This document shows, one piece after another, positions 3 to 28,217 of a stretch of 61,611 nt of DNA. Numbering within the stretch: the first letter of the stretch is position 1; each line of letters begins with the position of its first letter. Source of the stretch: Polyangium aurulentum (GTDB lineage Bacteria > Myxococcota_A > Polyangia > Polyangiales > Polyangiaceae); NCBI GenBank assembly GCA_945875545.1, contig CAMCKZ010000006.1, positions 1 to 61,611 on the forward strand, written 5' to 3'. The translations under genes were made by a program, and so were the position numbers. The notes beneath the pieces are model-generated. The model ran no database searches, had not been told where the DNA came from, and worked only from the letters and a program-made list of their open reading frames with translations.

Positions 3-644
3 GAAATTGGCTACACGAACCAAGAGTCCGACCTCTTCGACATCGAAGCCGCGGTGTATTTCAACCGCGTCACCGACCTCATTCAGCTCGCACCGCTGTC
101 GCTTCTCGGGCCTTCCAACAGCCTCGTGGGCCTCGATCAGCAATCGGGCCGCTACGTCGTCGGGCTCTCGGGTTTCGTCAATCAGTGCGCCGCGTTCAAC
201 GTTCTCGGCAGCGAAGTGGGCATCCGCACGTACCCCATGCCGGGCCTCGACGTCTTCGCCAACTACGCTTTCAACCGCGTGGCGATCGATCGTCCCGCGG
301 GGTGTGAACAGCCCGCCGACAGCCGCACCAGCGCCCACAAAGTGAATGCCGGCGTGCAGTGGCGCACAAAGCCCGGCATCGACGGCGAGCTGACATTTCA
401 CTGGGTTTCCGACCAAGTGTGGAGCGAGCGCGACGTCGATCAAAAGCAGGCCACGCTCGTCTTCAAAGAGCTGCCCCTCGGCGCTTACAAGATGGTGAAC
501 GCGCGCATCGGCTGGAAGATTCACCCGGAGGTCGGAGAGATTTCGGCCGCGATTTTCAACGCCTTCGACGACGTGCATCGCGAGCATCCGTTCACGAGCC
601 AGCTTCGCCGCCGCGTCTCTGTTTTCTTCACCCGCGATCTTTGA
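3..644 (+). CDS. TonB-dependent receptor, C-terminal fragment
   Basis: This is the 3' end of a gene that begins before the window; the frame is open from base 3. The visible ~213 residues are beta-barrel-like, with alternating aromatic and hydrophobic strands. They finish with 'GEISAAIFNAFDDVHREHPF' and a terminal strand ending in F-T-R-D-L, as in the C-termini of TonB-dependent outer-membrane receptors. The family imports large or scarce nutrients (iron chelates, vitamins, sugars) across the outer membrane using TonB energy. The substrate cannot be read because the plug domain is missing. The next gene, a lipoprotein, starts 11 bases after the stop, so the two are probably co-transcribed. 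Family call good, substrate unknown. Confidence 0.72.
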   Translation, partial: EIGYTNQESDLFDIEAAVYFNRVTDLIQLAPLSLLGPSNSLVGLDQQSGRYVVGLSGFVNQCAAFNVLGSEVGIRTYPMPGLDVFANYAFNRVAIDRPAGCEQPADSRTSAHKVNAGVQWRTKPGIDGELTFHWVSDQVWSERDVDQKQATLVFKELPLGAYKMVNARIGWKIHPEVGEISAAIFNAFDDVHREHPFTSQLRRRVSVFFTRDL

Positions 645-655
645 GAGCCACGACC

Positions 656-2281
656 ATGCTCCCCATTCTTCGTTCTTCAACGTCATCGCTCGCGCTTCTC
701 GCGCCGTTGATGCTCGCGTTCACAGGCGTCGCCGTTGCGTCCTGCACCCCGCCCGACGACGCCGCCCTTCCGCCGGCGGGGGTCATTTCGGGAACCGTGT
801 CTTACGTCGGGCCCAAGCCCTGCACCGAGAGCGGCCACGTTGTTGGTGCCGCAAATTTGCTCCTGTTCGAGACCAAAAACCTTCCGCCTCCCGACGGCCT
901 CGCAACGCGATCGGTGCGCATTTCTGCTGTACCCGGCACGTTGCTATTCGCCGATTTGGCCCCGCGCCTCACCTACAATGCCGATGGCAGCCGATGGTGC
1001 CCGACCGACGGCGAACGCGTGACGTCGAGCGTTCCGTTCAGCTTTGCGGCGGTGGGCGGCGGCCAATTTCAAGTGCGCGGTTATTACGATCTCGTTGGCG
1101 ATTTTAACCCCGCTTTCAAGATCACCACGTCGTCCGCCAAGGGCAACATCAGCGGCGGCGCTCTGTTGAACGCGGCGGAGGCAGCGGGCGGACAAGACCC
1201 GATCTATGCCCAAGTGACCATCGGCCAACGGCAGCCCGACGGCACGTATTTGGTGCCCCCAACTGGTGTGCATCTGACGAACGTCTCCGTCTCACTCTGG
1301 AAGCCATTCGCCTTCGAGCGACCGTATTACCATGTTAAGTCCGTGCATTACCCTGTTCTTACAGCAACTGCATCCGAACAAGTTAGAATCGTCGAGGCAC
1401 CCCCATTTGTGGAGGTGGCCTCCGACTGGCACATCGCTTATGGGCCAAGTGAAATCACGAGCATCAGCAACGCGCTGCTCGGCCTTGAGCTCTCGGCGAC
1501 CATGCCCGCGGCCGAGATGGCTACTGCCCAGGCATTTCCCTACCGATTTCGCGTCGGGGCGGCATCCACCTTCGACCTTTTTTGGGACGGCAAGGCGCGG
1601 GTTCCGGGAACAAAAAGCGCCATTGTCGCCGACGGTCTTCCGGCCTACGGCCCGAGCATTGTCGTCGCCAAGCTCGATCCGAACGACCCGAAACACCTCG
1701 CGGGCCAGGCCAATCCGCGCGTCGTTTCATCGGGCATTGTGGCGAAGGAGTTCTCGCTGCTCACGCTGTTGAATGCGACCCAGACGACCGAAGCGCACGC
1801 AACCATTGTGGCGCTGCTCCGGCCAACACTCATTTGCATCACCGACCCAAACGTCAACGGGCCGGCTCACATCATCACGCCCTTCAAACAGAGTTTGTCC
1901 GACAAACCCGTGGTCGCCGATGAAGCGGGGCTCATCACCGATGTCGCGGCGCTGCTTCGTCGCGACCCCAAAAAGACGACGTTCGGCGAAAGCTGCCTCA
2001 TTCCCGGCGACTACGCGATGAACGTCGTGTACCCGACGAGCCAAGCCTGGACGTTGCCAAACGAAAGCGGCCTGTGCATGGGCAACGAAGTGACCGGCAC
2101 CGGCACCTGCGAGACCAAAGACACGAGCCGGACCACGCTCGCATCGCAGCGCTTTGTCATTCGCATTGGCAAGGCGGCTGATCCAAAAGCGTGCCGCGCC
2201 AAAGTTGATGCTTTGACCAAAGCGAACTGCCTGTCGCCGTCCGATCTTGCCAAGTTGGAAGCGGGTACGCTTTTCGATTGA
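656..2281 (+). CDS. Large lipoprotein of unknown function, partner of TonB receptor
   Basis: 541 residues. The frame stays open upstream into the receptor gene, but the ATG at 656 was chosen because it directly precedes a lipoprotein signal peptide: a hydrophobic stretch ending in the lipobox V-A-S-C at about residue 29. The mature part is rich in beta-strand-like segments and begins with a 'GVISGTVSY' segment that resembles a carboxypeptidase-regulatory or Ig-like domain. It has several scattered cysteines but no catalytic motif I can name. It sits 11 bases after the receptor stop and 75 bases before the porin gene, so it is probably a surface lipoprotein that works with the receptor. I do not recognise a specific family. 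Confidence 0.7.
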   Translation: MLPILRSSTSSLALLAPLMLAFTGVAVASCTPPDDAALPPAGVISGTVSYVGPKPCTESGHVVGAANLLLFETKNLPPPDGLATRSVRISAVPGTLLFADLAPRLTYNADGSRWCPTDGERVTSSVPFSFAAVGGGQFQVRGYYDLVGDFNPAFKITTSSAKGNISGGALLNAAEAAGGQDPIYAQVTIGQRQPDGTYLVPPTGVHLTNVSVSLWKPFAFERPYYHVKSVHYPVLTATASEQVRIVEAPPFVEVASDWHIAYGPSEITSISNALLGLELSATMPAAEMATAQAFPYRFRVGAASTFDLFWDGKARVPGTKSAIVADGLPAYGPSIVVAKLDPNDPKHLAGQANPRVVSSGIVAKEFSLLTLLNATQTTEAHATIVALLRPTLICITDPNVNGPAHIITPFKQSLSDKPVVADEAGLITDVAALLRRDPKKTTFGESCLIPGDYAMNVVYPTSQAWTLPNESGLCMGNEVTGTGTCETKDTSRTTLASQRFVIRIGKAADPKACRAKVDALTKANCLSPSDLAKLEAGTLFD

Positions 2282-2356
2282 TCGGCAGGGTTCGCGCCGA
2301 TCTTTGAATTCGTGGCGGGTGCTTTCGCGACCTGAATTCGTTAGGGTCGGGGGCAA

Positions 2357-3562
2357 ATGCGTCTTCCTCTATTTCTAGCCCCAGCCCTCGCTTTGGCGTC
2401 CAGCGCCCCCAGTTTGATCGCCCACGCGGACACCTCCGACTCCAACGCGGCCTCGGCACAAATGCCCGTCGTCGAGCTCGGGTCCGACGCCTCCCTCGCG
2501 GTAGGAGCTTACGTGCAAACAGGCTTCGCATACCGAAAGCATACACCGTATGTTGGTCAGCAAGATCCGAGTGGTTTTGAGTTCGGCAACGCACGCCTCT
2601 TGGGGCGCGGCGCGCAGAAGATCAGCGCGGATCTCGACGCAAAACTGACGCTCGATTTCGAGGTAAGCCGGGGAGCTTTCTTCGTCCAAGATAGTTATGG
2701 GAGCCTCGAGTACAAGAACGGGCTGCTCTCGGTGGACGTGGGGCAGATGAAGGTTCCGATGGCGCTTTCGTGCCTGACGCCGGAATCGCAGATGCAGTTT
2801 GTGCAGCTCGCACCCGGTGCCCGCGATCTTTTTTACAACCGCGATCGCGGGGTTCGCCTTCGTTCGAAGTTCAACCTCGGTGACGCGTATTTTGGGGCCT
2901 GGGCCGCGGTGCAAAACGGCGAGGGCGAGAACGTTCGCGACAACGCCAACAAGCACTTTCTATTTTCGGGCCGAGCCGAGGTCGGACCCCTTGGGGAGGT
3001 GTCGTTGGCGGAGCCCGATCTTGACCACAGCCCGTTTCGCTTCGTCGTCGGATTGGGTGCATCTTACACCGATATGCAAAGTCGATCCGGGGCGGCCTAC
3101 ACCGCGATCGACAACGGGTCTGAAGAGCTTCGCGTCGCCGGCGACGTGCGTGCCCACGTTCTCGGGCTGTCTTTTCGCGGAGAAACCATTCGCGGCTTTG
3201 TGAAGCGCAGCGACGGCGTCGACGTCAAACGCAGCGTCTTTGCGGTGCAAGCCGGTTACGTTTTGCCGCTCGGCCTTGCGTTTCAATTGGAACCGGTGGT
3301 GCGCCTTGAGCAACACGATCTCAACGACACGGAAGGAACCAAGGGATTCACCGATAGCTTGGCCGACACGTGGCGCCCCGAACTCGCGAGCCAGCGCGTC
3401 ACCGACGCCGGTGTGAACGCCTACTTCCGGGCGCATCGGCTTAAAGTGCAGGCGGTGTGGCGGCGCACCGATTTCTTGGAAGGCGCAAAAGACTCGGCTG
3501 GCACCGCGCGAACGCCCATCGGCGACGCCGTTTTTCTTTACGCGCAATTCGGCTGGTTTTAG
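2357..3562 (+). CDS. OprP/OprO-type phosphate-selective porin
   Basis: 401 residues with a signal peptide ending near A-H-A (residue ~24). The body is a 16-strand-type porin. The diagnostic stretch is near residues 130-170: 'GQMKVPMALSCLTPESQ', followed by a segment with 'RDLFYNRDRGVRL', which matches the conserved part of the Porin_O_P family (inner strand followed by the 'R-D-x-G' region). The protein ends in aromatic phenylalanine (F-G-W-F), the usual outer-membrane barrel C-terminus. Family members form anion or polyphosphate channels in the outer membrane. The next gene encodes a phosphatase-like lipoprotein, which fits a phosphate-uptake role, although many Porin_O_P proteins have untested specificity. 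Confidence 0.8.
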   Translation: MRLPLFLAPALALASSAPSLIAHADTSDSNAASAQMPVVELGSDASLAVGAYVQTGFAYRKHTPYVGQQDPSGFEFGNARLLGRGAQKISADLDAKLTLDFEVSRGAFFVQDSYGSLEYKNGLLSVDVGQMKVPMALSCLTPESQMQFVQLAPGARDLFYNRDRGVRLRSKFNLGDAYFGAWAAVQNGEGENVRDNANKHFLFSGRAEVGPLGEVSLAEPDLDHSPFRFVVGLGASYTDMQSRSGAAYTAIDNGSEELRVAGDVRAHVLGLSFRGETIRGFVKRSDGVDVKRSVFAVQAGYVLPLGLAFQLEPVVRLEQHDLNDTEGTKGFTDSLADTWRPELASQRVTDAGVNAYFRAHRLKVQAVWRRTDFLEGAKDSAGTARTPIGDAVFLYAQFGWF

Positions 3563-3595
3563 TTGATGCGGCCCTTCATGATCGCCGGAGTCTCA

Positions 3596-4606
3596 ATGCA
3601 CCCATTTCTAAAATTTTCTCTCGCCGCTTCCGCCGTTGCCCTCGTTGCGTGCCGCGGCGATGAGACCGCGGTCGCCCAACCTGGCTTGCAGAATGCAACC
3701 GCAATCCAGTGCCCGTTTTCCACCGTCACGAAGGGGTTTGCGAGCGAAGACTCGGCAAACGTTCTCGAGACCGGGCGCCTCTTCATGAACGAGAGCCAGG
3801 ACTCCTACGGCCTTCCGGGTGCTCTCGCCCCACTGCGCGGAAAGATGCAACGCGGCACCTCAAATTACATTGTCGGCAAGGTCTTCGCCGGCGAAAAGGT
3901 GAGCCTTTGGGTGCAGAATACAACGGGCACGTGGGAGCAGAGCGGGGCCAGTATTTCCACGGACGCGAGTGGCAATTACACCTTCCCGTTGGCGGCGGCC
4001 CAGCAGGTGCAGAATACAAGTACCCACGCTTACGTGCTGCTCGAGGGCGACGGGTCTTGCGCGGAACACGGCGTGTACGCTTGGCCACGCGGCACCCAAA
4101 TTGTTGTGACCGACATCGACGGCACGATGACCAAGGCCAACGCGGAATTTGAGACGCAGGTGACGAAACCAAGTTACGTCCCGCTTGAACACCACGGTGC
4201 CGCCGCCACGATGACCGCGTGGACCTCGAAGAAGTACCGCGTCGTATTTCTCAGCGCGCGGCCCGATAATTTTCGCGATCCCACGCGCGTTTGGCTGCGC
4301 GACAAGGGTGTGAACTTTGGCCCGATCGTCACCGCGACGAGCTTCGTCACGGGCGCGGCAGCCATCGATTACAAGACCAAGGCCCTGCAAAAAATGGTCA
4401 CCGATTACGGGTGGAAAATTGTCGCCGCGTACGGCAATGAGCCCAGCGACGTGCAGGCGTACGCCAACGTCAACGTGCCCAAGGCCCAGACCTTTACCGT
4501 AGAAAACGCGAACGGCATCGAGGGCACCACGGGCCTCCCGGGAGACGACTACGGCCCGCACCTGACCAACTACGTGAGCAAGCAGCCCGACGCCCAGCAG
4601 CCCTAA
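3596..4606 (+). CDS. Lipoprotein with LNS2/HAD phosphatidate-phosphatase-like domain
   Basis: 336 residues. The ATG at 3596 is preferred over an upstream TTG at 3563: it has GGAG about six bases upstream and is followed by a compact signal peptide with lipobox L-V-A-C (Cys at residue 19). Residues ~85-165 look like a beta-sandwich linker domain. The C-terminal half carries the HAD signature 'VVTDIDGTMT' (D173 nucleophile, D175), then 'VVFLSARP' (motif II Ser) and a distal Lys and Asp region, as in the LNS2 (Lipin/Ned1/Smp2) family, whose eukaryotic members dephosphorylate phosphatidic acid. As a lipoprotein it acts outside the cytoplasm, probably at the outer membrane. It follows the porin by 33 bases, so a phospholipid or organophosphate scavenging role is inferred. 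Substrate unproven. Confidence 0.75.
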   Translation: MHPFLKFSLAASAVALVACRGDETAVAQPGLQNATAIQCPFSTVTKGFASEDSANVLETGRLFMNESQDSYGLPGALAPLRGKMQRGTSNYIVGKVFAGEKVSLWVQNTTGTWEQSGASISTDASGNYTFPLAAAQQVQNTSTHAYVLLEGDGSCAEHGVYAWPRGTQIVVTDIDGTMTKANAEFETQVTKPSYVPLEHHGAAATMTAWTSKKYRVVFLSARPDNFRDPTRVWLRDKGVNFGPIVTATSFVTGAAAIDYKTKALQKMVTDYGWKIVAAYGNEPSDVQAYANVNVPKAQTFTVENANGIEGTTGLPGDDYGPHLTNYVSKQPDAQQP

Positions 4607-4934: not shown

Positions 4935-4964
4935 ACCATGCAGGATCGTCCCACGTGGTGTCAA
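4935..4964 (-). promoter_or_regulatory. Candidate sigma-70-type promoter of tRNA-Phe
   Basis: Reading the minus strand, TTGACA (4964-4959) is followed after 18 bases by CATGGT (4940-4935), about 16 bases before the tRNA 5' end. The -10 element overlaps the start codon of the oppositely directed lipoprotein gene at 4938. Confidence 0.5.
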
Positions 4965-5471
4965 GAACGAATCTTCCCCTGGGCGACTCTCGTGTGCCTC
5001 CTGGGAGCCTGCAAAGGCGGTCCAAGCGCCTCCAGCGCCCAGGACGGGGCCATCGGCGCCGAGTGCGTCGCCGTCCTCGACGCCGTCTCCCGGGTGCCGA
5101 ACTTTGCGGGCGCGGGCAGCGCCCATTTTGAGGCCGTCAACCGCGGTGAAGCCGCCGACGTTCTGCGCCTCGCAGCCAGCACGTGCCCGTTCGGGTGGCT
5201 CGCGTTGCCCGCCGACGAAAAGAAGGACCTCCGCGGGGCCGTGGGTGCGCGTTGTGCCGACGGCGAGGCCATGCTCGCATTTGCATGCATGATACACGGA
5301 GATATTTCGGCCCGCGACACCGACGTCTTCGTTCGTTGGGCCTACTTGCACCCCGCGGTTCGCGCGGACGACGGGCCGGCGATGGCCGCGACGATTCGGC
5401 GCTTGGAGCGGCTCGGAGGGAGCGAAGCGGCTCGCGATGCTCTCGCGCGGGCCGTCTATCCGGCGCGGTAA
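4938..5471 (+). CDS. Small putative lipoprotein, unknown function
   Basis: 177 residues with strong GC bias at third codon positions, which supports a real gene. The N-terminus has a short basic/hydrophobic signal and a lipobox L-G-A-C (Cys at residue 25), so it is probably membrane-anchored. The mature part is mostly helical and Ala-rich, with cysteines at 'AECVAV', 'STCPFG', 'ARCADG' and 'FACMIH'. I recognise no domain. It stands alone between two tRNA genes on the other strand. The ATG at 4938 lies inside the candidate tRNA-Phe promoter, but no later start would keep the signal peptide. Confidence 0.65.
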   Translation: MQDRPTWCQERIFPWATLVCLLGACKGGPSASSAQDGAIGAECVAVLDAVSRVPNFAGAGSAHFEAVNRGEAADVLRLAASTCPFGWLALPADEKKDLRGAVGARCADGEAMLAFACMIHGDISARDTDVFVRWAYLHPAVRADDGPAMAATIRRLERLGGSEAARDALARAVYPAR

Positions 5472-5887: not shown

Positions 5888-7489
5888 TCAGGCCAGTCGA
5901 CCCACTGCCGCCTCGACATCCGTCCGCAGGCGCCCGGCACCGAGCCACTGCTCGATGGCCCGCACATCGTCCGAGAGAATGCGATCGCCCGTCATGGGTG
6001 CCACGATCTGCCGCACGGACCTCAGCGCCGAGGCCACACCACGACTCGGCGACACCGGTGCCCGTTGGTCGATACCCGCCGCCGCGACCATCAGTTCCAA
6101 GCTGAGACCTCGCCGCACGTTCGTGACGATCAAATGGAGTTTTCGCGCGCTGATCGAGCCCATGCTGACATGGTCTTCGCGGCCTGCGGACGACGGGATG
6201 GAGTCGACGCTCGCGGGATGTGCGTAAATCTTGTTTTCGCTCACGAGGCTCGCCGCTGCAACCTGGGCGATCATGAAGCCCGAGTGCAGTCCGCTTCCGG
6301 CCGCAAGAAAAGGCGTGAGCCCCGCCGACAACGACGGGTTCACGAGCTGCTCCACGCGTCGCTCGCTTACGTTGGCCAGTTCGGCCACCGCCATGCCCGC
6401 GAGGTCCAACGCGAATGCAAGGATCTGGCCGTGAAAGTTTCCGCCGCTCAACAGATCGAAACCCCCGTCGCGAAGAAATACACTGGGGTTATCGGTGACC
6501 GAATTGATCTCGCACTCAAGCACCGAGCGCACCCACGTCAACGCATCACGCGACGCGCCGTGAATCTGCGGCATGCACCTAAGGGAATACGGGTCTTGTA
6601 CTTTTTCGCAATTTCGATGGCTCTCGGCGATGGGGCTGTCCGCGAGCAGGGTTCGAAGATTGTTCGCAACGCTCGCCTGCCCAGGATGGGGCCGCGCCGC
6701 ATGAAGGCGCGGATCAAACGGCGTTGAAGTGCCCTTCAGTGCCTCCAAACTCATGGCCCCAATGATGTCGGCGGCGGAGCAAAGTTCCTCGGCTTCAAGG
6801 AGCGCCAGGGTGCCAAGGCTCGCCATGTATTGCGTGCCGTTGATCAACGCCAACCCCTCTTTGGCCTCGAGGGCGATCGGGGTCATGCCGGCACTGGCGA
6901 GCACCGAAGAAGATGCAATATACACAGGTATTTCATCGTCATACGACGCATAGATGGCCTGCGGCCTCGCCACGAGCGCCGCGCGGCCCTCACCCACCAG
7001 CGTCAGCGCCAAGTGCGCGAGCGGTGCCAAGTCGCCCGAGGCACCGACACTGCCCTGCGACGGAATCAGCGGATGGACCCCGCGATTCAGCATTTCGATG
7101 AGCTGGGTGAGGACCTCCTCGCGAACGCCCGAGTGACCCAACGCCAACACCTGGGCACGGAGGAGGACCATTCCGCGCACCGCCGTGATGGGCAGCGCAT
7201 CTCCGAGACCCACCGCATGCGACCGCACTAAATTGATCTGCAGCGCGCGCACGTCCGCGGCCGAAATGCGCGTTTCGGCGAGGGCACCAAAACCCGTGTT
7301 CACACCGTAAACCGAGGGGGCTGCGTCGCCCGCTGCGGCGATGGATTCGATCGGGGCCCGACTTGCGCGAACCCTTGATCGCGTGTCGTCATTGATGGTC
7401 ACCGCACGCCCGCGCAGCGCCACATCGGCGAAGTCTCGGAGCGAGAGCGGGAGACCTAGAAAGACCGGTGATAGCGGCGCGATTGGCAT
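5888..7489 (-). CDS. hutH: Histidine ammonia-lyase (histidase)
   Basis: 533 residues (family ~510). It deaminates L-histidine to trans-urocanate, the first step of histidine degradation, in the cytoplasm. The MIO prosthetic group forms from A-S-G at residues 150-152 in 'GSVGASGDLAPLAH'. The catalytic Tyr is in 'VYGVNTGFG' (Y61), with H91 in 'RSHAVGLG', 'QDPYSLRCMPQ' in the middle, and the 'SENKIYAHPASVDS' segment carrying the conserved Glu. The start at 7489 (MPIAPLS) removes a non-conserved 46-residue extension of the open frame. It lies 116 bases after the hybrid kinase gene, and no hutU, hutI or hutG is in the window. 'SSAGRED' replaces the usual 'ANQED', a small deviation. Histidase is favoured over tyrosine or phenylalanine lyase. 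Confidence 0.9.
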   Translation of the reverse strand: MPIAPLSPVFLGLPLSLRDFADVALRGRAVTINDDTRSRVRASRAPIESIAAAGDAAPSVYGVNTGFGALAETRISAADVRALQINLVRSHAVGLGDALPITAVRGMVLLRAQVLALGHSGVREEVLTQLIEMLNRGVHPLIPSQGSVGASGDLAPLAHLALTLVGEGRAALVARPQAIYASYDDEIPVYIASSSVLASAGMTPIALEAKEGLALINGTQYMASLGTLALLEAEELCSAADIIGAMSLEALKGTSTPFDPRLHAARPHPGQASVANNLRTLLADSPIAESHRNCEKVQDPYSLRCMPQIHGASRDALTWVRSVLECEINSVTDNPSVFLRDGGFDLLSGGNFHGQILAFALDLAGMAVAELANVSERRVEQLVNPSLSAGLTPFLAAGSGLHSGFMIAQVAAASLVSENKIYAHPASVDSIPSSAGREDHVSMGSISARKLHLIVTNVRRGLSLELMVAAAGIDQRAPVSPSRGVASALRSVRQIVAPMTGDRILSDDVRAIEQWLGAGRLRTDVEAAVGRLA

Positions 7490-7605
7490 GGATCGCCCAC
7501 TTACACGCTCGCGCTCGCCTTCCAATGCTTGACGCGCAAGCCCGTGCAGAATACACGTTCTTTTCCGAAGGACCAACCGGCGCTCGCGGCCAATCGACAA
7601 GCCCT

Positions 7606-10413
7606 CTAAACGGTGATGACGATCCATCGCTCAAGGAGCGAATCAAGGGCTTCAAGGGTAATGGGCTTCGAGACGAAGTCGTCCATCCCCGAGAGGAACG
7701 AGCGTTCGCGATCTTCGTTCGTCGTATTCGCCGTCAGCGCAACAATCGCTACATGGCCGCCGAGCTTTTTTTCGTTTTCGCGAATGCGCCGCGTCGCCAC
7801 ATAGCCATCGACGACGGGCATTTGGCAATCCATGAGAATGAGATCGTAGCGGTTCGATTGGGCCGCCTCCACGGCCTCTGCGCCGCCAATGGCCGTCTCG
7901 GGCCGGTACCCCAGCTTCTCGAGCATGCGCACGCAGACGCGGAGGTTGACGGCGTTGTCGTCGACGACCAAAACGCGGCCTGCCCCACCACCACGCGCAC
8001 CGAGCGGACGCGGGCGCCCAGACTGCGTAACGAGGGCCTGCGCCGGCTGCATCATGCGCTGGGCCACCTCGACCAAGCGTGCGGGCTGCAACGGCTTGAC
8101 GAGGACGGCTCCAAAGCAGCCGAGGTCGCCGCCAACGCGCGGGCTTTTTCGGCCCGCGGGCAAGATACCCACCATGGCCGTTCCGTCGTGCGATCCCACC
8201 GCCTCCACAATCGCGCGCAGCCCTGACTCGTTGAGGGATGCTTCACCGCAGTCCACAAAAATCATCGCGAATTTTTCGGCGCTGCAAGAGCGAATGGCGG
8301 CCACAGCCTCTTCGGCACTCGCAACAGCCGTAACCTTTACACCGGCTGCACCAAGTGTTACCTCTACTGCCTGACGTACAGTCTTAACGGCCGAGAGAAC
8401 GAGGACCGATTTCTCGCAGCGAAAGGCAGCCCGCCCGTCGAGCTCGGTGCGCGTCGTGCCCGCCGGCATGGGTATGGTGACATGAAAAGTGCTGCCCACG
8501 CCGAGTTCGCTCTCCACGCCGTCGTCGCCGCCCATCAGCGCCACGATCTGGCGCACGAGGGCGAGCCCTATGCCGCTGCCGCCGTGGCGACGGCTCATGG
8601 AGCTATCGGCCTGCTCAAAAGCCCGAAACACGGACACGAGATCGGCCTCGGCAACTCCGATGCCCGTGTCTGTCACGGTGAACCGCCAATAGGGAACGCC
8701 GTCGATGGAGCCCTCTTGCGTGACCGAGAGCGTGACCTCCCCGATCTCTGTGAACTTAATGGCGTTGTCGATCAGGTGCCCGAGGACCTGACGAATTCGC
8801 CCCGGATCGCCGGAACAAGCGCGGGGAAGATTGGGTGCCACCAACAGGCCGAACTCGAGTCCCTGGTTGAAGGCTATCTCCGCCATCTGCGTGCATACTG
8901 CATCGATCACGGCCAGTGGATCGTATTGAATGTTCGCGAGAGACAGCTCTTGAGCTTCGAGCTTGGCGAAATCGAGGATGTCGTCGACGAGGCGCAAAAG
9001 CTGTTCGCCGGACGTGCGAACGGTTTCGGCGTACTCCCGCTGTTCGTCGGTCAAGACGGTGGCGAGCAACACGGTCGTCATGCCGAGAACGCCGTTTAGC
9101 GGGGTTCTCATTTCATGATTCATCATCGCCAGGAAAGCCGAGCGATGTTTGTTCGCGGCTTCATTGGCGGCGACGGACGCCAGGGCCAACTCGATCTCGA
9201 GTTCTTCGGTTCGATCGCGAAAGACCACCACGCAGCCGATGATCGCGCCCTCGGAATCGCGAATGGGCGAAGCCGTGAGCGCCACCGGGCGCAACACCCC
9301 CCTTGCGCATTCCAAAAAGGTCGGGCCGGCCGTTTCCACAAGCGTCGTGCCGGATTCGAGGACCTCCGTCGTGGGGTCCGGGAGCGGCTGCTTTGAGGCC
9401 TCGTCGATGAGGTGGAGCACGTCGGGGCAAAAGGTGCCGCGGACCGACTCGAAGGTCTTTCCGAGCAGGCGGCACGCCGCAGGATTCATGCGCACGATGC
9501 GGTTCTGAGAATCGGTGGCAATGACTGCATCGCCGATGCTGTGCAGGGTGGCCTCGAGGCGACGAGCACGCTCGCTCTCTTCTTCGCGCTCGCGCACCTG
9601 GGCGGCGTCGGTGAACATGCGCATCGTCGTCTGAAAAACAAAGCTCGACACGGAGTAATCGCCCTCATCCCAGGCCAACCCCGCGCCATCGCGCTCGACG
9701 CGTACAACGATGAATTCACCGGGATTCCGCTGCACAGCGTGCTCGATGACCCGAGCATCGGCGGCAAGCGCATTTACCTTGACAAGCTCCTTGAGATGCC
9801 GATCGGCACCGGCGGCGTCGGTCACAATCTGCCTCGTTCCAGAGGCCGGAAGCCAGCCGTCGATGTCCGCCCTGGCCAACACCACGGATTCAGCTGAGGT
9901 CGAAGCATCGCGATTGTACATCGCCATGGTGCGCAGGCCATCGATGCCGAGCACCGACAAAACGACGCGATCGGCTCGCAACATTTCGCCTGCAATATAC
10001 ACGAGCTCCCGCGCCGCGGCACCGAGCCCCTCTTGCTCCACGGTGGCACGAAGCCCGAAGGTCATGAGCGAGTGATGCTGCGACGCAGGCGATGTGCCCG
10101 AGCGTAGCCCGACACGCACAAGAGACACCGCGATGCGCTCCGCGAGCGCCACCTCTTCGAGAAGCGCGACGTCGTCGGCACCAGCGATGAACGCGTCGCG
10201 CGCGTTTACGTGGCTCGCCAACACCGCGATGACATGCGTCGCGGGGTGCTCCGCGCGAACGGCTGAAATGTGAAACGCCAGCCTCTCGCTGGAACACACC
10301 AAAACAATGGACGCACCCTCACCGCACTCCGCCACGCCCGCGCGGCGCAATGCAGCCCTTACGACCGCCTTACCCTCCTCGCCTACGAAACGAACCGCCG
10401 TGACTTCGTCCAC
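7606..10413 (-). CDS. Hybrid sensor histidine kinase (GAF-PAS-HK-REC-REC)
   Basis: 935 residues from a GTG start. Approximate domains: a receiver-like N-terminus without clear phosphorylation residues (1-105), GAF (120-270), PAS (285-400), HisKA with 'MNHEMRTPLNG' (H433), HATPase with 'DNAIKFTE' (N550), 'DTGIGV' and 'GGSGIGLAL' (to ~648), a degenerate receiver (668-790; D721 and K773 kept, acidic pair missing) and an intact receiver (812-930; D-D-N, D862, K916). No membrane segment is apparent, so it is probably cytosolic. It is the last gene of the che cluster, 115 bases after cheB, so it may feed into or read out of the chemosensory array. The signal is unknown. Confidence 0.88.
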   Translation of the reverse strand: MDEVTAVRFVGEEGKAVVRAALRRAGVAECGEGASIVLVCSSERLAFHISAVRAEHPATHVIAVLASHVNARDAFIAGADDVALLEEVALAERIAVSLVRVGLRSGTSPASQHHSLMTFGLRATVEQEGLGAAARELVYIAGEMLRADRVVLSVLGIDGLRTMAMYNRDASTSAESVVLARADIDGWLPASGTRQIVTDAAGADRHLKELVKVNALAADARVIEHAVQRNPGEFIVVRVERDGAGLAWDEGDYSVSSFVFQTTMRMFTDAAQVREREEESERARRLEATLHSIGDAVIATDSQNRIVRMNPAACRLLGKTFESVRGTFCPDVLHLIDEASKQPLPDPTTEVLESGTTLVETAGPTFLECARGVLRPVALTASPIRDSEGAIIGCVVVFRDRTEELEIELALASVAANEAANKHRSAFLAMMNHEMRTPLNGVLGMTTVLLATVLTDEQREYAETVRTSGEQLLRLVDDILDFAKLEAQELSLANIQYDPLAVIDAVCTQMAEIAFNQGLEFGLLVAPNLPRACSGDPGRIRQVLGHLIDNAIKFTEIGEVTLSVTQEGSIDGVPYWRFTVTDTGIGVAEADLVSVFRAFEQADSSMSRRHGGSGIGLALVRQIVALMGGDDGVESELGVGSTFHVTIPMPAGTTRTELDGRAAFRCEKSVLVLSAVKTVRQAVEVTLGAAGVKVTAVASAEEAVAAIRSCSAEKFAMIFVDCGEASLNESGLRAIVEAVGSHDGTAMVGILPAGRKSPRVGGDLGCFGAVLVKPLQPARLVEVAQRMMQPAQALVTQSGRPRPLGARGGGAGRVLVVDDNAVNLRVCVRMLEKLGYRPETAIGGAEAVEAAQSNRYDLILMDCQMPVVDGYVATRRIRENEKKLGGHVAIVALTANTTNEDRERSFLSGMDDFVSKPITLEALDSLLERWIVITV

Positions 10414-27078: not shown

Positions 27079-27543
27079 ATGGCGCTGAGTGCTGAGGTCA
27101 TGACGGCCGTACTGACGGAGCTGGCGGAGCAAATCGCGATCCTCCAGACGGAGCTCACTGAGTCGGCCATGCCCGTCGAAGATCCAGCGATCCTCGATCA
27201 CCTATACCGCGCGGCCCACACCATGAAGGGGCTCGCCGGTGCCGTCGAGATGCACGATTTGCATCGCCTGTCAAATGCGATGGAACTCGTGATTTCCCAG
27301 GGGCTTTCGTGCGCGCTCGTCATTGATGGCAGCGTCGGCACCACCCTGCGCGAGGCCAGCGCCGCATGCGCCGAGCTCGCCAGCGGAGAGGTGTCGTCGA
27401 CCCTCAACGTCGAGGCCATGGTGGCGCGCATCGAGGCCATCGAGACCTCGGCCACACCCACGCGCCGCGTTCTTTTCCACGCAACGGCCGCGCCTTACGC
27501 GCGAGCATCTGGGCCCCCTGGCGACCCACCTGACGACGCCTGA
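27079..27543 (+). CDS. Stand-alone Hpt (histidine phosphotransfer) protein
   Basis: 154 residues, start preceded by GGAGGAG. The Hpt helix carries 'RAAHTMKGLAGAVEM' with the phospho-His at ~residue 49 (H-x-x-K-G). The rest is helical with a Pro-rich tail. Such proteins shuttle phosphate between hybrid kinase receivers and response regulators. The hybrid kinase 17 kb away is one possible partner but there is no direct link. It has no kinase or receiver neighbour. The stop lies inside a 15-bp tandem repeat. Confidence 0.8.
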   Translation: MALSAEVMTAVLTELAEQIAILQTELTESAMPVEDPAILDHLYRAAHTMKGLAGAVEMHDLHRLSNAMELVISQGLSCALVIDGSVGTTLREASAACAELASGEVSSTLNVEAMVARIEAIETSATPTRRVLFHATAAPYARASGPPGDPPDDA

Positions 27544-27577
27544 CAGAACGACGCCTGACAGAACGACGCCTGACAGA
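27533..27577. repeat. Three perfect 15-bp tandem repeats
   Basis: The unit ACGACGCCTGACAGA is repeated three times without change (27533-27547, 27548-27562, 27563-27577). The first unit contains the stop codon of the Hpt gene, and the array fills most of the spacer before the acyltransferase gene. Confidence 0.95.
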
Positions 27578-27620
27578 GTGATGACACCGGGCGCGCGGCG
27601 ACTCGAAGAAGGTTGAAAAT

Positions 27621-28217
27621 ATGTCTACCTCTCCTTGGCTCCTTGACGCCCGTGAACGCTTTGGTCGCGCGTGGCTCAAAACTTACGGCTGGACGATCGA
27701 CGGCGTAGCGCCGGGCATTCCCAAGGCCGTCGTGTGCTCCGCGCCCCACACAACCAATTGGGACCTTCCATTTTGTTTGGCCATCTGTTGGGCGCTCCGC
27801 ATTGAGCTCGCGTGGATTGGCAAAAATGATCTTTTTTCGGGCCCGGCCGGCCCCCTCATGCGCGCCCTCGGAGGCATCGCGGTGGATCGCACGAAGAGCC
27901 TCAATCAAGTGCAGGCCGCGTCGGCGCTCTTCGAAGAGACAGAACGGCTGCTGTTGATGGTTCCGCCCGAGGGCACGCGCGGCCGCGCGGAGCGGTGGAA
28001 GACAGGCTTTTATTACATCGCCCTGTCGGCGAAAGTCCCCATTATCCTCGGCTACCTCGACTACGAAAAAAAGTGCGGCGGCTTCGGCGAGGTGTTTTGG
28101 CCCACGGGAAACATCGTCGAAGACGAGTCGCGTCTGCGCTCATTTTACGCCGGAAAAAAGGGGAAATTCCCCGACCAAGCGACCCCCGTGTATTTTGCAC
28201 CTACTCAAAAAGAATGA
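27621..28217 (+). CDS. PlsC-family acyltransferase
   Basis: 198 residues. It has the glycerolipid acyltransferase motifs: 'APHTTNWDL' (H-x4-D, catalytic His and Asp), 'GGIAVDR', 'VPPEGTRGRAERWKTGFYYIA' split into the EGTR phosphate-binding part and a following Lys, and 'VPIILGYLDY'. It is shorter than PlsC (~240) and lacks clear membrane spans, like the small YihG/1-acylglycerol acyltransferase-related proteins found in many bacteria. The likely role is transfer of a fatty acyl chain to lysophosphatidate or another acceptor. The ribosome site is AAGAAGG. Confidence 0.85.
   Translation: MSTSPWLLDARERFGRAWLKTYGWTIDGVAPGIPKAVVCSAPHTTNWDLPFCLAICWALRIELAWIGKNDLFSGPAGPLMRALGGIAVDRTKSLNQVQAASALFEETERLLLMVPPEGTRGRAERWKTGFYYIALSAKVPIILGYLDYEKKCGGFGEVFWPTGNIVEDESRLRSFYAGKKGKFPDQATPVYFAPTQKE

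Follow-up and report, generated by a model that had tools for sequence, protein, structure and literature searches.

The locus

We analyzed four genes at the very start of a contig of Polyangium aurulentum. The window, that is, the whole stretch of 61,611 nucleotides, begins at base 1 of contig C6 (CAMCKZ010000006.1) of a draft genome of 3.5 Mb in 188 contigs (GCA_945875545.1). A first-pass annotation had placed a TonB-dependent receptor, a lipoprotein, a porin and a lipoprotein with an LNS2 domain here. Our reading of the open reading frames (ORFs) confirms all four on the plus strand (Table 1), the receptor as a C-terminal part. The annotation had also read the four genes as one locus that cleaves phospholipids or organophosphates at the surface and takes up the released phosphate. 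Comparison across genomes shows two adjoining modules. Porin and LNS2 lipoprotein make up one pair, a conclusion supported by their adjacency in other genera. The receptor and its lipoprotein, which we call P0002, are a separate module.

Table 1. Features of the porin-LNS2 locus and of the adjoining receptor module (window coordinates)
Feature	Position	Strand	Basis
TonB-dependent receptor, C-terminal 213 aa	3..644	+	PF00593, 30.3 bits; 5' part beyond contig end
P0002, lipoprotein of unknown fold, usual receptor partner	656..2281	+	receptor beside it at 17/20 loci
Inter-module gap, 75 bp	2282..2356		alpha/beta-hydrolase lipoprotein gene occupies the equivalent place in G002
Porin, weak Porin_O_P member, LNS2 partner	2357..3562	+	PF07396, 21.7 bits, cut-off 20.9
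LNS2 (HAD phosphatase) lipoprotein, 336 aa: signal peptide, beta-sandwich, HAD domain	3596..4606	+	Pfam and model
LNS2 lipoprotein lipobox LVAC, Arg at +2	3641..3652	+	read from sequence; Arg +2 in 9/9 porin-linked proteins
Catalytic motif DIDGT (Asp173, Asp175)	4112..4126	+	both Asp and Thr in 65/65 LNS2 proteins covering the site
Asn182, position of Mg-binding Asp155 of Tt Pah2	4139..4141	+	alignment; excerpt of PMC12657724
Motif II SARP (Ser220, Arg222)	4253..4264	+	LNS2 alignment
Motif III Lys260 (= Lys244 of Tt Pah2)	4373..4375	+	alignment
Motif IV GNEPSD (Asn281, Asp285); Glu282 at the place of phosphatidate-binding Arg269 of Tt Pah2	4433..4450	+	alignment; excerpt of PMC12657724

The porin and the LNS2 lipoprotein recur as a pair

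We read 67 LNS2 proteins in 66 loci. The set consists of the window, 39 of 40 loci taken from the 42 match rows of a search of 97 genomes (the window itself and G038 account for the two other rows), five loci out of two further match lists, 21 proteins in 20 loci from the upper part of another list, and locus L096. Left out were L071 of genome G060 (no match to the subfamily model), G291:C2 and the duplicates L094 and L095. We define an LNS2 subfamily by a score of more than 260 bits against a model of the six nearest proteins, which places 18 proteins above and 49 below the threshold. In a tree of the 18 members and 13 other LNS2 proteins the 18 stand apart with 100/100 support.

Among the proteins read, a porin gene is adjacent to and co-directional with the LNS2 gene for nine of the 18 subfamily members, compared to none of the 49 others. 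The porins were sought with a model of five LNS2-linked porins, which unrelated porins would escape. The nine linked pairs (G000, the window genome; G001, G002, G029, G143, G144, G439, G442 and G489) span five genera plus G489, whose LNS2 protein is very close to that of G442. In the window genus the two genes are 33 bases apart, and this short spacing suggests that they share one transcript. The window genome holds no second copy of the LNS2 lipoprotein at E up to 0.01 in a protein search.

How the linkage arose can be read in either direction. On the best tree of the subfamily the porin label needs five changes, while the well-supported branches force one. The label is no more clustered on the tree than in shuffles (135 of 500 were as low), hence its history could be one of gains or of losses.

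The receptor and P0002 form a separate module

In G002, a genome of the same genus, the receptor gene is whole and encodes 852 aa with tetratricopeptide repeats (TPR), plug and barrel. The window fragment is 86% identical to its C-terminus; among receptors of solved structure, the colicin I receptor and BtuB come closest. P0002 starts 11 bases after the receptor stop and has, by eye, a lipobox-like VASC. Neither Pfam nor NCBIfam matches it at E up to 1, and none of its PDB matches is credible (leptin matches at E 0.11 were taken as chance). DUF2141 was considered as its family and rejected, being weak in three of 12 homologues (best E 0.0094) and absent from the window protein.

P0002 homologues occur in 51 of the 97 genomes, the own genome counted. 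Among the 20 best loci, the window included, 17 have a receptor of the same kind adjoining P0002 within the 1.5-kb flanks that were read; L083, L084 and L085 have none within these flanks. At L091 and L082 receptor matches flank the P0002 homologue on both sides, which suggests that the module stands there in tandem copies.

The partnership with the porin-LNS2 pair is much narrower. LNS2 is present in 34 of the 97 genomes (own included), and 22 of the 97 have both LNS2 and P0002. Only in the window genome and in G002 do the two lie side by side. Of the remaining 20 genomes, 19 have them on different contigs and G056 has them a megabase apart, with the proviso that many of these draft assemblies are in hundreds of contigs and could hide some linkages. 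Receptor and P0002 queries against L032-L071 and L094-L096 match at the G002 locus only, and G001 (83% complete) has no P0002 match. The first-pass annotation had proposed, as a check, a search for the same gene order elsewhere. The pair withstands it, with nine loci in at least five genera. The four genes as a general conserved unit do not, since the whole set was found only in the window genus (the window and G002), and the proposed coupling of the receptor and its lipoprotein to the pair is not supported.

The G002 locus has one more gene. On one strand it reads receptor, P0002, an alpha/beta-hydrolase lipoprotein, porin and LNS2. The hydrolase lipoprotein (323 aa, Abhydrolase_2 34 bits; L092:5456-6424) resembles a short-chain polyhydroxyalkanoate (PHA) depolymerase or carboxylesterase. 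In G001 the end of the same hydrolase gene precedes the porin, at the contig end. The window has 75 bases at its place and the window genome no close copy (best match E 6.2e-7, elsewhere than the gap), and thus the window genome probably lost the gene. A terminator between the two modules was also considered and rejected: the hairpin at about 2280-2303 is no stronger than shuffles (z -1.0) and is not listed by a scan.

Fold and anchor of the LNS2 lipoprotein

The claim that an LNS2 domain with a DxDGT motif sits on a lipoprotein holds. The protein matches PF24694 (LNS2_PITM1-3) with 82.0 bits (cut-off 27.7) and PF08235 (LNS2) with 61.6 bits (cut-off 32.3), and both DIDGT and a lipobox are present. 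The start codon is likely ATG 3596, which gives a signal peptide and the lipobox LVAC before RGDE; signal peptide, lipobox and Cys read MHPFLKFSLAASAVALVAC, followed by RGDE. A script found a lipobox in six of nine linked and seven of nine unlinked subfamily members and in 33 of the 49 other LNS2 proteins. It missed the porin-linked proteins of L096, L034 and L154, which show CR by eye.

Porin linkage goes along with the residue after the lipidated Cys. All nine porin-linked proteins have Arg at this +2 position (six of six by script, three by eye), at 3650-3655 in the window and likewise in L036, L037, L034, L096, L149, L150, L154 and L161. None of the seven readable unlinked subfamily members has it (they carry Gly, Ser or Asp), and it is found in two of the 33 others. 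On scripted counts and ignoring relatedness, Fisher's test gives p 0.0006. Arg at +2 may be a sorting or docking signal. Lipoproteins of the Myxococcus inner membrane often carry Lys at +2, and those of the matrix Ala at +7 (excerpt of PMC3222651). The window protein has no Lys at +2 and hence lacks the inner-membrane retention signal that this excerpt describes for Myxococcus. It does have Ala at +7, unlike the five other linked proteins read by the script.

A structural model built from six sequences (predicted local distance difference test, pLDDT, 71.9) places the protein in a known fold family. Its best match is the C-terminal domain of human Nir2 (Z 23.0 over 247 residues, root-mean-square deviation 2.7, 24% identity), followed by Tetrahymena lipin/Pah (6tzy_D; Z 16.6 over 219 residues). 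Further matches, at Z 14 and below, mainly cover the HAD domain. A sequence profile agrees with the fold (Nir2 E 2.3e-25, lipin/Pah E 1.9e-12). As modeled, the protein combines the Ig-like and HAD domains that characterize lipin/Pah.

Both relatives also differ from the bacterial protein. The LNS2 domain of Nir2/PITPNM1 (PDB 9jzp, 9jtz, 9jz1) is the top PDB match by sequence and by fold, across beta-sandwich and HAD domain. In Nir proteins, however, the domain is part of lipid-transfer proteins, and according to the excerpt of PMC12419160 they lack the catalytic Asp nucleophile (SIDGS). The bacterial protein retains DIDGT and is a free-standing protein with signal peptide and lipobox. Lipin/Pah, represented by Tt Pah2 (PDB 6tzy, 9d14), has the same two-domain fold. 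Efficient catalysis by lipins depends on an amphipathic helix (same excerpt), while the window protein is exported and has a predicted lipid anchor (no search for a helix was made). Our searches of an open-access library turned up no description of bacterial LNS2 lipoproteins. The fold family is known, and the window protein is a porin-linked, exported variant of it without the lipin signature.

The active site is kept and the lipid signature is not

The catalytic residues are conserved throughout. Both Asp and the Thr of DxDxT are present in all 65 LNS2 proteins that cover the site (two of the 67 are cut), and all 67 keep Ser/Thr and Arg of motif II, Lys of motif III and Asn/Asp of motif IV. 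The nucleophile, the acid/base, Lys244, Asn268, Asp272 and Arg193 of Tt Pah2 all have counterparts in the window protein. From its sequence the window protein is probably a phosphatase.

It is probably not one tuned to phosphatidate (PA). The available text of PMC12657724 names Asp155, which binds Mg, and Arg269, which recognizes PA, as the lipin/Pah signature; the window protein has Asn182 and Glu282 at these places. Across the 18 subfamily members the Asp155 position is Asp in 14, Asn in three (the window genus) and Glu in one, and the Arg269 position is Ala in 14, Glu in three and Met in one, so that Arg is missing from every member. The 49 other LNS2 proteins have Asp (18), Glu (29) or a gap (2) at the first position and Arg (6), Lys (7) or another residue (36) at the second. 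In Tt Pah2, R269E leaves less than 5% of the PA activity and does not change a very low activity on p-nitrophenyl phosphate; D155N leaves less than 5% activity (same text). The proposed cleavage of phosphatidate or phospholipids is thus weakened, because the residues by which lipins recognize PA are replaced.

Which porin is the phosphate porin?

OprP-type phosphate-selective porins carry an arginine ladder and a lysine cluster, and the ladder also appears in the title of PDB 2o4v. The window porin is likened to OprP/OprO porins (PF07396) by a marginal pass of the Porin_O_P cut-off (Table 1) and by a low-confidence model (pLDDT 58.6) of a porin-like barrel with about 16 strands (17 strand elements). 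It differs from them in that its profile has no sequence match to any solved porin. The model does not yield an OprP identity either: OprP is third in the Foldseek list and inseparable from OmpF, and general porins score alike. A PF07396 search of the genomes recovers four of the nine LNS2-linked porins.

A better candidate lies elsewhere in the genome. On contig C1 a Pst-like locus encodes PhoU, a permease, an ABC ATPase and a Porin_O_P porin, together with a PstS-like protein that scores 46.5 bits where its model sets a cut-off of 205. At 99.5 bits the C1 porin scores far above the window porin, and its gene is divergent from the ATPase gene (L174 = G000:C1:1-13000). An OmpR-type regulator lies about 5 kb from the locus. 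Hence the label of an OprP-type, phosphate-selective porin survives for the window porin only in a weak form, as marginal membership in Porin_O_P. The likeliest true phosphate porin of the organism is the C1 copy, with the window porin as a diverged paralogue.

As a separate observation, three half-sites of the Pho-box kind in an 11-base register (L174:4456-4482) are found where the PstS-like frame begins.

Phosphate-related neighbours and repeats outside the window genus

PhoD genes adjoin two of the linked pairs. In G489 (LNFB01000191.1, Deltaproteobacteria bacterium Ga0077550) the porin gene has a divergently oriented PhoD gene beside it, with a second PhoD gene 2 kb further, and in G144 the same arrangement is seen with the start of a PhoD gene. 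In G029 one gene separates LNS2 from a metallophosphoesterase gene. PhoD is rare: the 10 genomes searched have 0-6 match rows each, and seven have any. By chance we would expect about 0.015 of the nine pairs to have PhoD within 3 kb, compared to the two seen, a pattern that was noticed post hoc.

The regions upstream of the porin are also enriched in repeats that resemble Pho boxes. We counted TGTCA-N6-TGTCA with up to 2 mismatches, using 1000 shuffles as a reference, in six hand-chosen regions of 261-401 bases from the loci outside the window genus. These regions contain seven sites, with a shuffle mean of 1.04 (0/1000 reach seven), and three sites with one mismatch compared to 0.09 in shuffles. 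The pattern was first spotted in two of the six; the four loci unexamined before have four sites compared to 0.68 (5/1000 shuffles). The 11-base period is the strongest; with any other period between 8 and 15 the count is 0 to 3 sites. Another 59 upstream regions from these loci contain eight sites in 14,750 bases. The sites before the porin occur in G489, G144, G442 and G029, and at L096 all four Pho-box-like rows precede PhoD or porin starts.

Over whole loci this short form of the repeat shows no excess. A long E. coli-type pattern has no match in the G002 locus and six in the window, where 8.25 are expected.

One further repeat in the window is a side observation. At 27533-27587 three perfect 15-base tandem copies (ACGACGCCTGACAGA) lead into a perfect TGTCA-N6-TGTCA on the minus strand (27571-27586); some 35 bases further on, at 27621, comes a reading frame of the acyltransferase family.

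Interpretation and alternatives

We propose that the locus consists of two adjoining envelope modules, and that in the second a porin works with a lipid-anchored phosphatase of the lipin/Nir2 fold that frees phosphate from small soluble phosphomonoesters. The first module would be a TonB-dependent receptor with its usual lipoprotein partner. In the second, the N-terminal lipid would tether the phosphatase to the outer membrane, a place that agrees with the absence of Lys at +2, and so replace the amphipathic helix of lipins. Asp173 would be the nucleophile and Asp175 the acid/base, with Mg held together with Asn281 and Asp285, and small phosphomonoesters would be the substrates. The freed phosphate, or else the product left after dephosphorylation, would cross the porin, and the Pst-like system elsewhere in the genome would take it up. 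We give this explanation a slightly better than even chance; the enrichment of repeats upstream of the porin lifted it a little above the even chance that we had given it before. A phosphate role of the pair is plausible because of the PhoD neighbours and the enriched repeats outside the window genus.

Several results weigh against this explanation. The other nine subfamily members have no such porin in the sequence read, although the G184 sequence breaks off within LNS2 and that of G035 reaches just 0.7 kb upstream. PhoD stands beside only two of the nine porin-LNS2 loci, and G143 and G439 have no Pho-box-like site before the porin. In the window genus itself neither trait turned up: three of its genomes have no PhoD match, the window gap before the porin has no site, and the whole window has 14 matches where 28.7 are expected. 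The first-pass annotation had proposed to look for a PhoB box upstream of the receptor; none was found in G002, where this region is readable, whereas in the window genome it lies beyond the contig end. The support for a phosphate role comes from outside the window genus. The window porin is a weak Porin_O_P member and the stronger copy stands at the pst locus, so a solute other than phosphate may pass through it. The enzyme raises doubts as well. By analogy to D155N, Asn at the place of Asp155 could mean low activity. R269E of Tt Pah2 still acts on PA, with a curve shaped like that of the wild type (available text of PMC12657724), and Nir2 binds phosphatidate without that Arg, so by analogy the loss of Arg leaves a lipid ligand possible.

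These last points touch the explanation of the first-pass annotation, a surface phosphatase for phosphatidate or phospholipids of lysed or prey cells whose phosphate enters via the porin. It draws on the fold shared with lipin/Pah and with the PA-binding Nir2 domain, on the lipid anchor, which would place the active site at the membrane, and on a lipoprotein of a phospholipase/carboxylesterase Pfam family in the same gene run in G002. We regard it as unlikely: the Asp/Arg pair is Asn/Glu in the window genus, the Arg is missing from all 18 subfamily members (14 of which keep the Asp), and of the 49 other LNS2 proteins six have Arg and seven Lys there. Somewhat less likely again is a single uptake system dedicated to one phosphorylated or esterified compound, in which receptor and lipoprotein would import the core of the compound and esterase and phosphatase would trim it at the surface. 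The five-gene run from receptor to LNS2 on one strand in G002 and the tight spacing of receptor and lipoprotein genes would suit it. Against it stand the adjacency of P0002 and LNS2 in just two of the 22 genomes that have both, the receptor and P0002 queries that match the G002 locus alone (many of these assemblies are fragmented), the missing close copy of the esterase in the window genome and the lack of a P0002 match in G001.

The LNS2 lipoprotein could also maintain the cell's own outer membrane, by removing phosphatidate or lyso-lipids or as a Nir-like lipid sensor, with the porin as an incidental neighbour. Nir LNS2 domains bind phosphatidate and lack the catalytic Asp (excerpt of PMC12419160), and porin linkage is scattered over the subfamily tree, with no more clustering than in shuffles. 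Yet the bacterial proteins, unlike Nir, retain both catalytic Asp wherever the site is covered, and the PhoD neighbours and Pho-box-like repeats suit nutrition better. We consider upkeep of the membrane improbable.

The pair may also shed light on the specificity of a eukaryotic family of lipid enzymes. Lipins produce the diacylglycerol that goes into fat and membranes, and Nir proteins are sensors of phosphatidate. An exported bacterial relative with intact catalytic residues, with the same two domains and without the lipid signature is a natural outgroup for the origin of lipid specificity. We suggest, as a speculation that is doubtful as a whole, that the porin-linked lipoproteins are an exported bacterial branch of the lipin/Nir fold, catalytic and without phosphatidate recognition. 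They would act as phosphate-regulated organophosphate phosphatases of the outer membrane. Eukaryotic lipins and Nirs would have arisen from or beside this branch, lipins by fixing the Asp/Arg signature and Nirs by losing the nucleophile. For bacteria, porin and tethered phosphatase are a small candidate pair for phosphate acquisition that recurs across myxobacterial genera.

Neighbouring features

The LNS2 lipoprotein gene is followed by a tRNA-Phe gene on the opposite strand. Between tRNA-Phe and tRNA-Leu lies a small lipoprotein-like ORF of 177 aa (4938-5471) with no Pfam match. On the minus strand, 5888-10413 encodes an aromatic amino acid (probably histidine) ammonia-lyase, in a long frame that overlaps the end of a hybrid sensor kinase. 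Similar genes come, by eye, after porin and LNS2 in G001 (L036).

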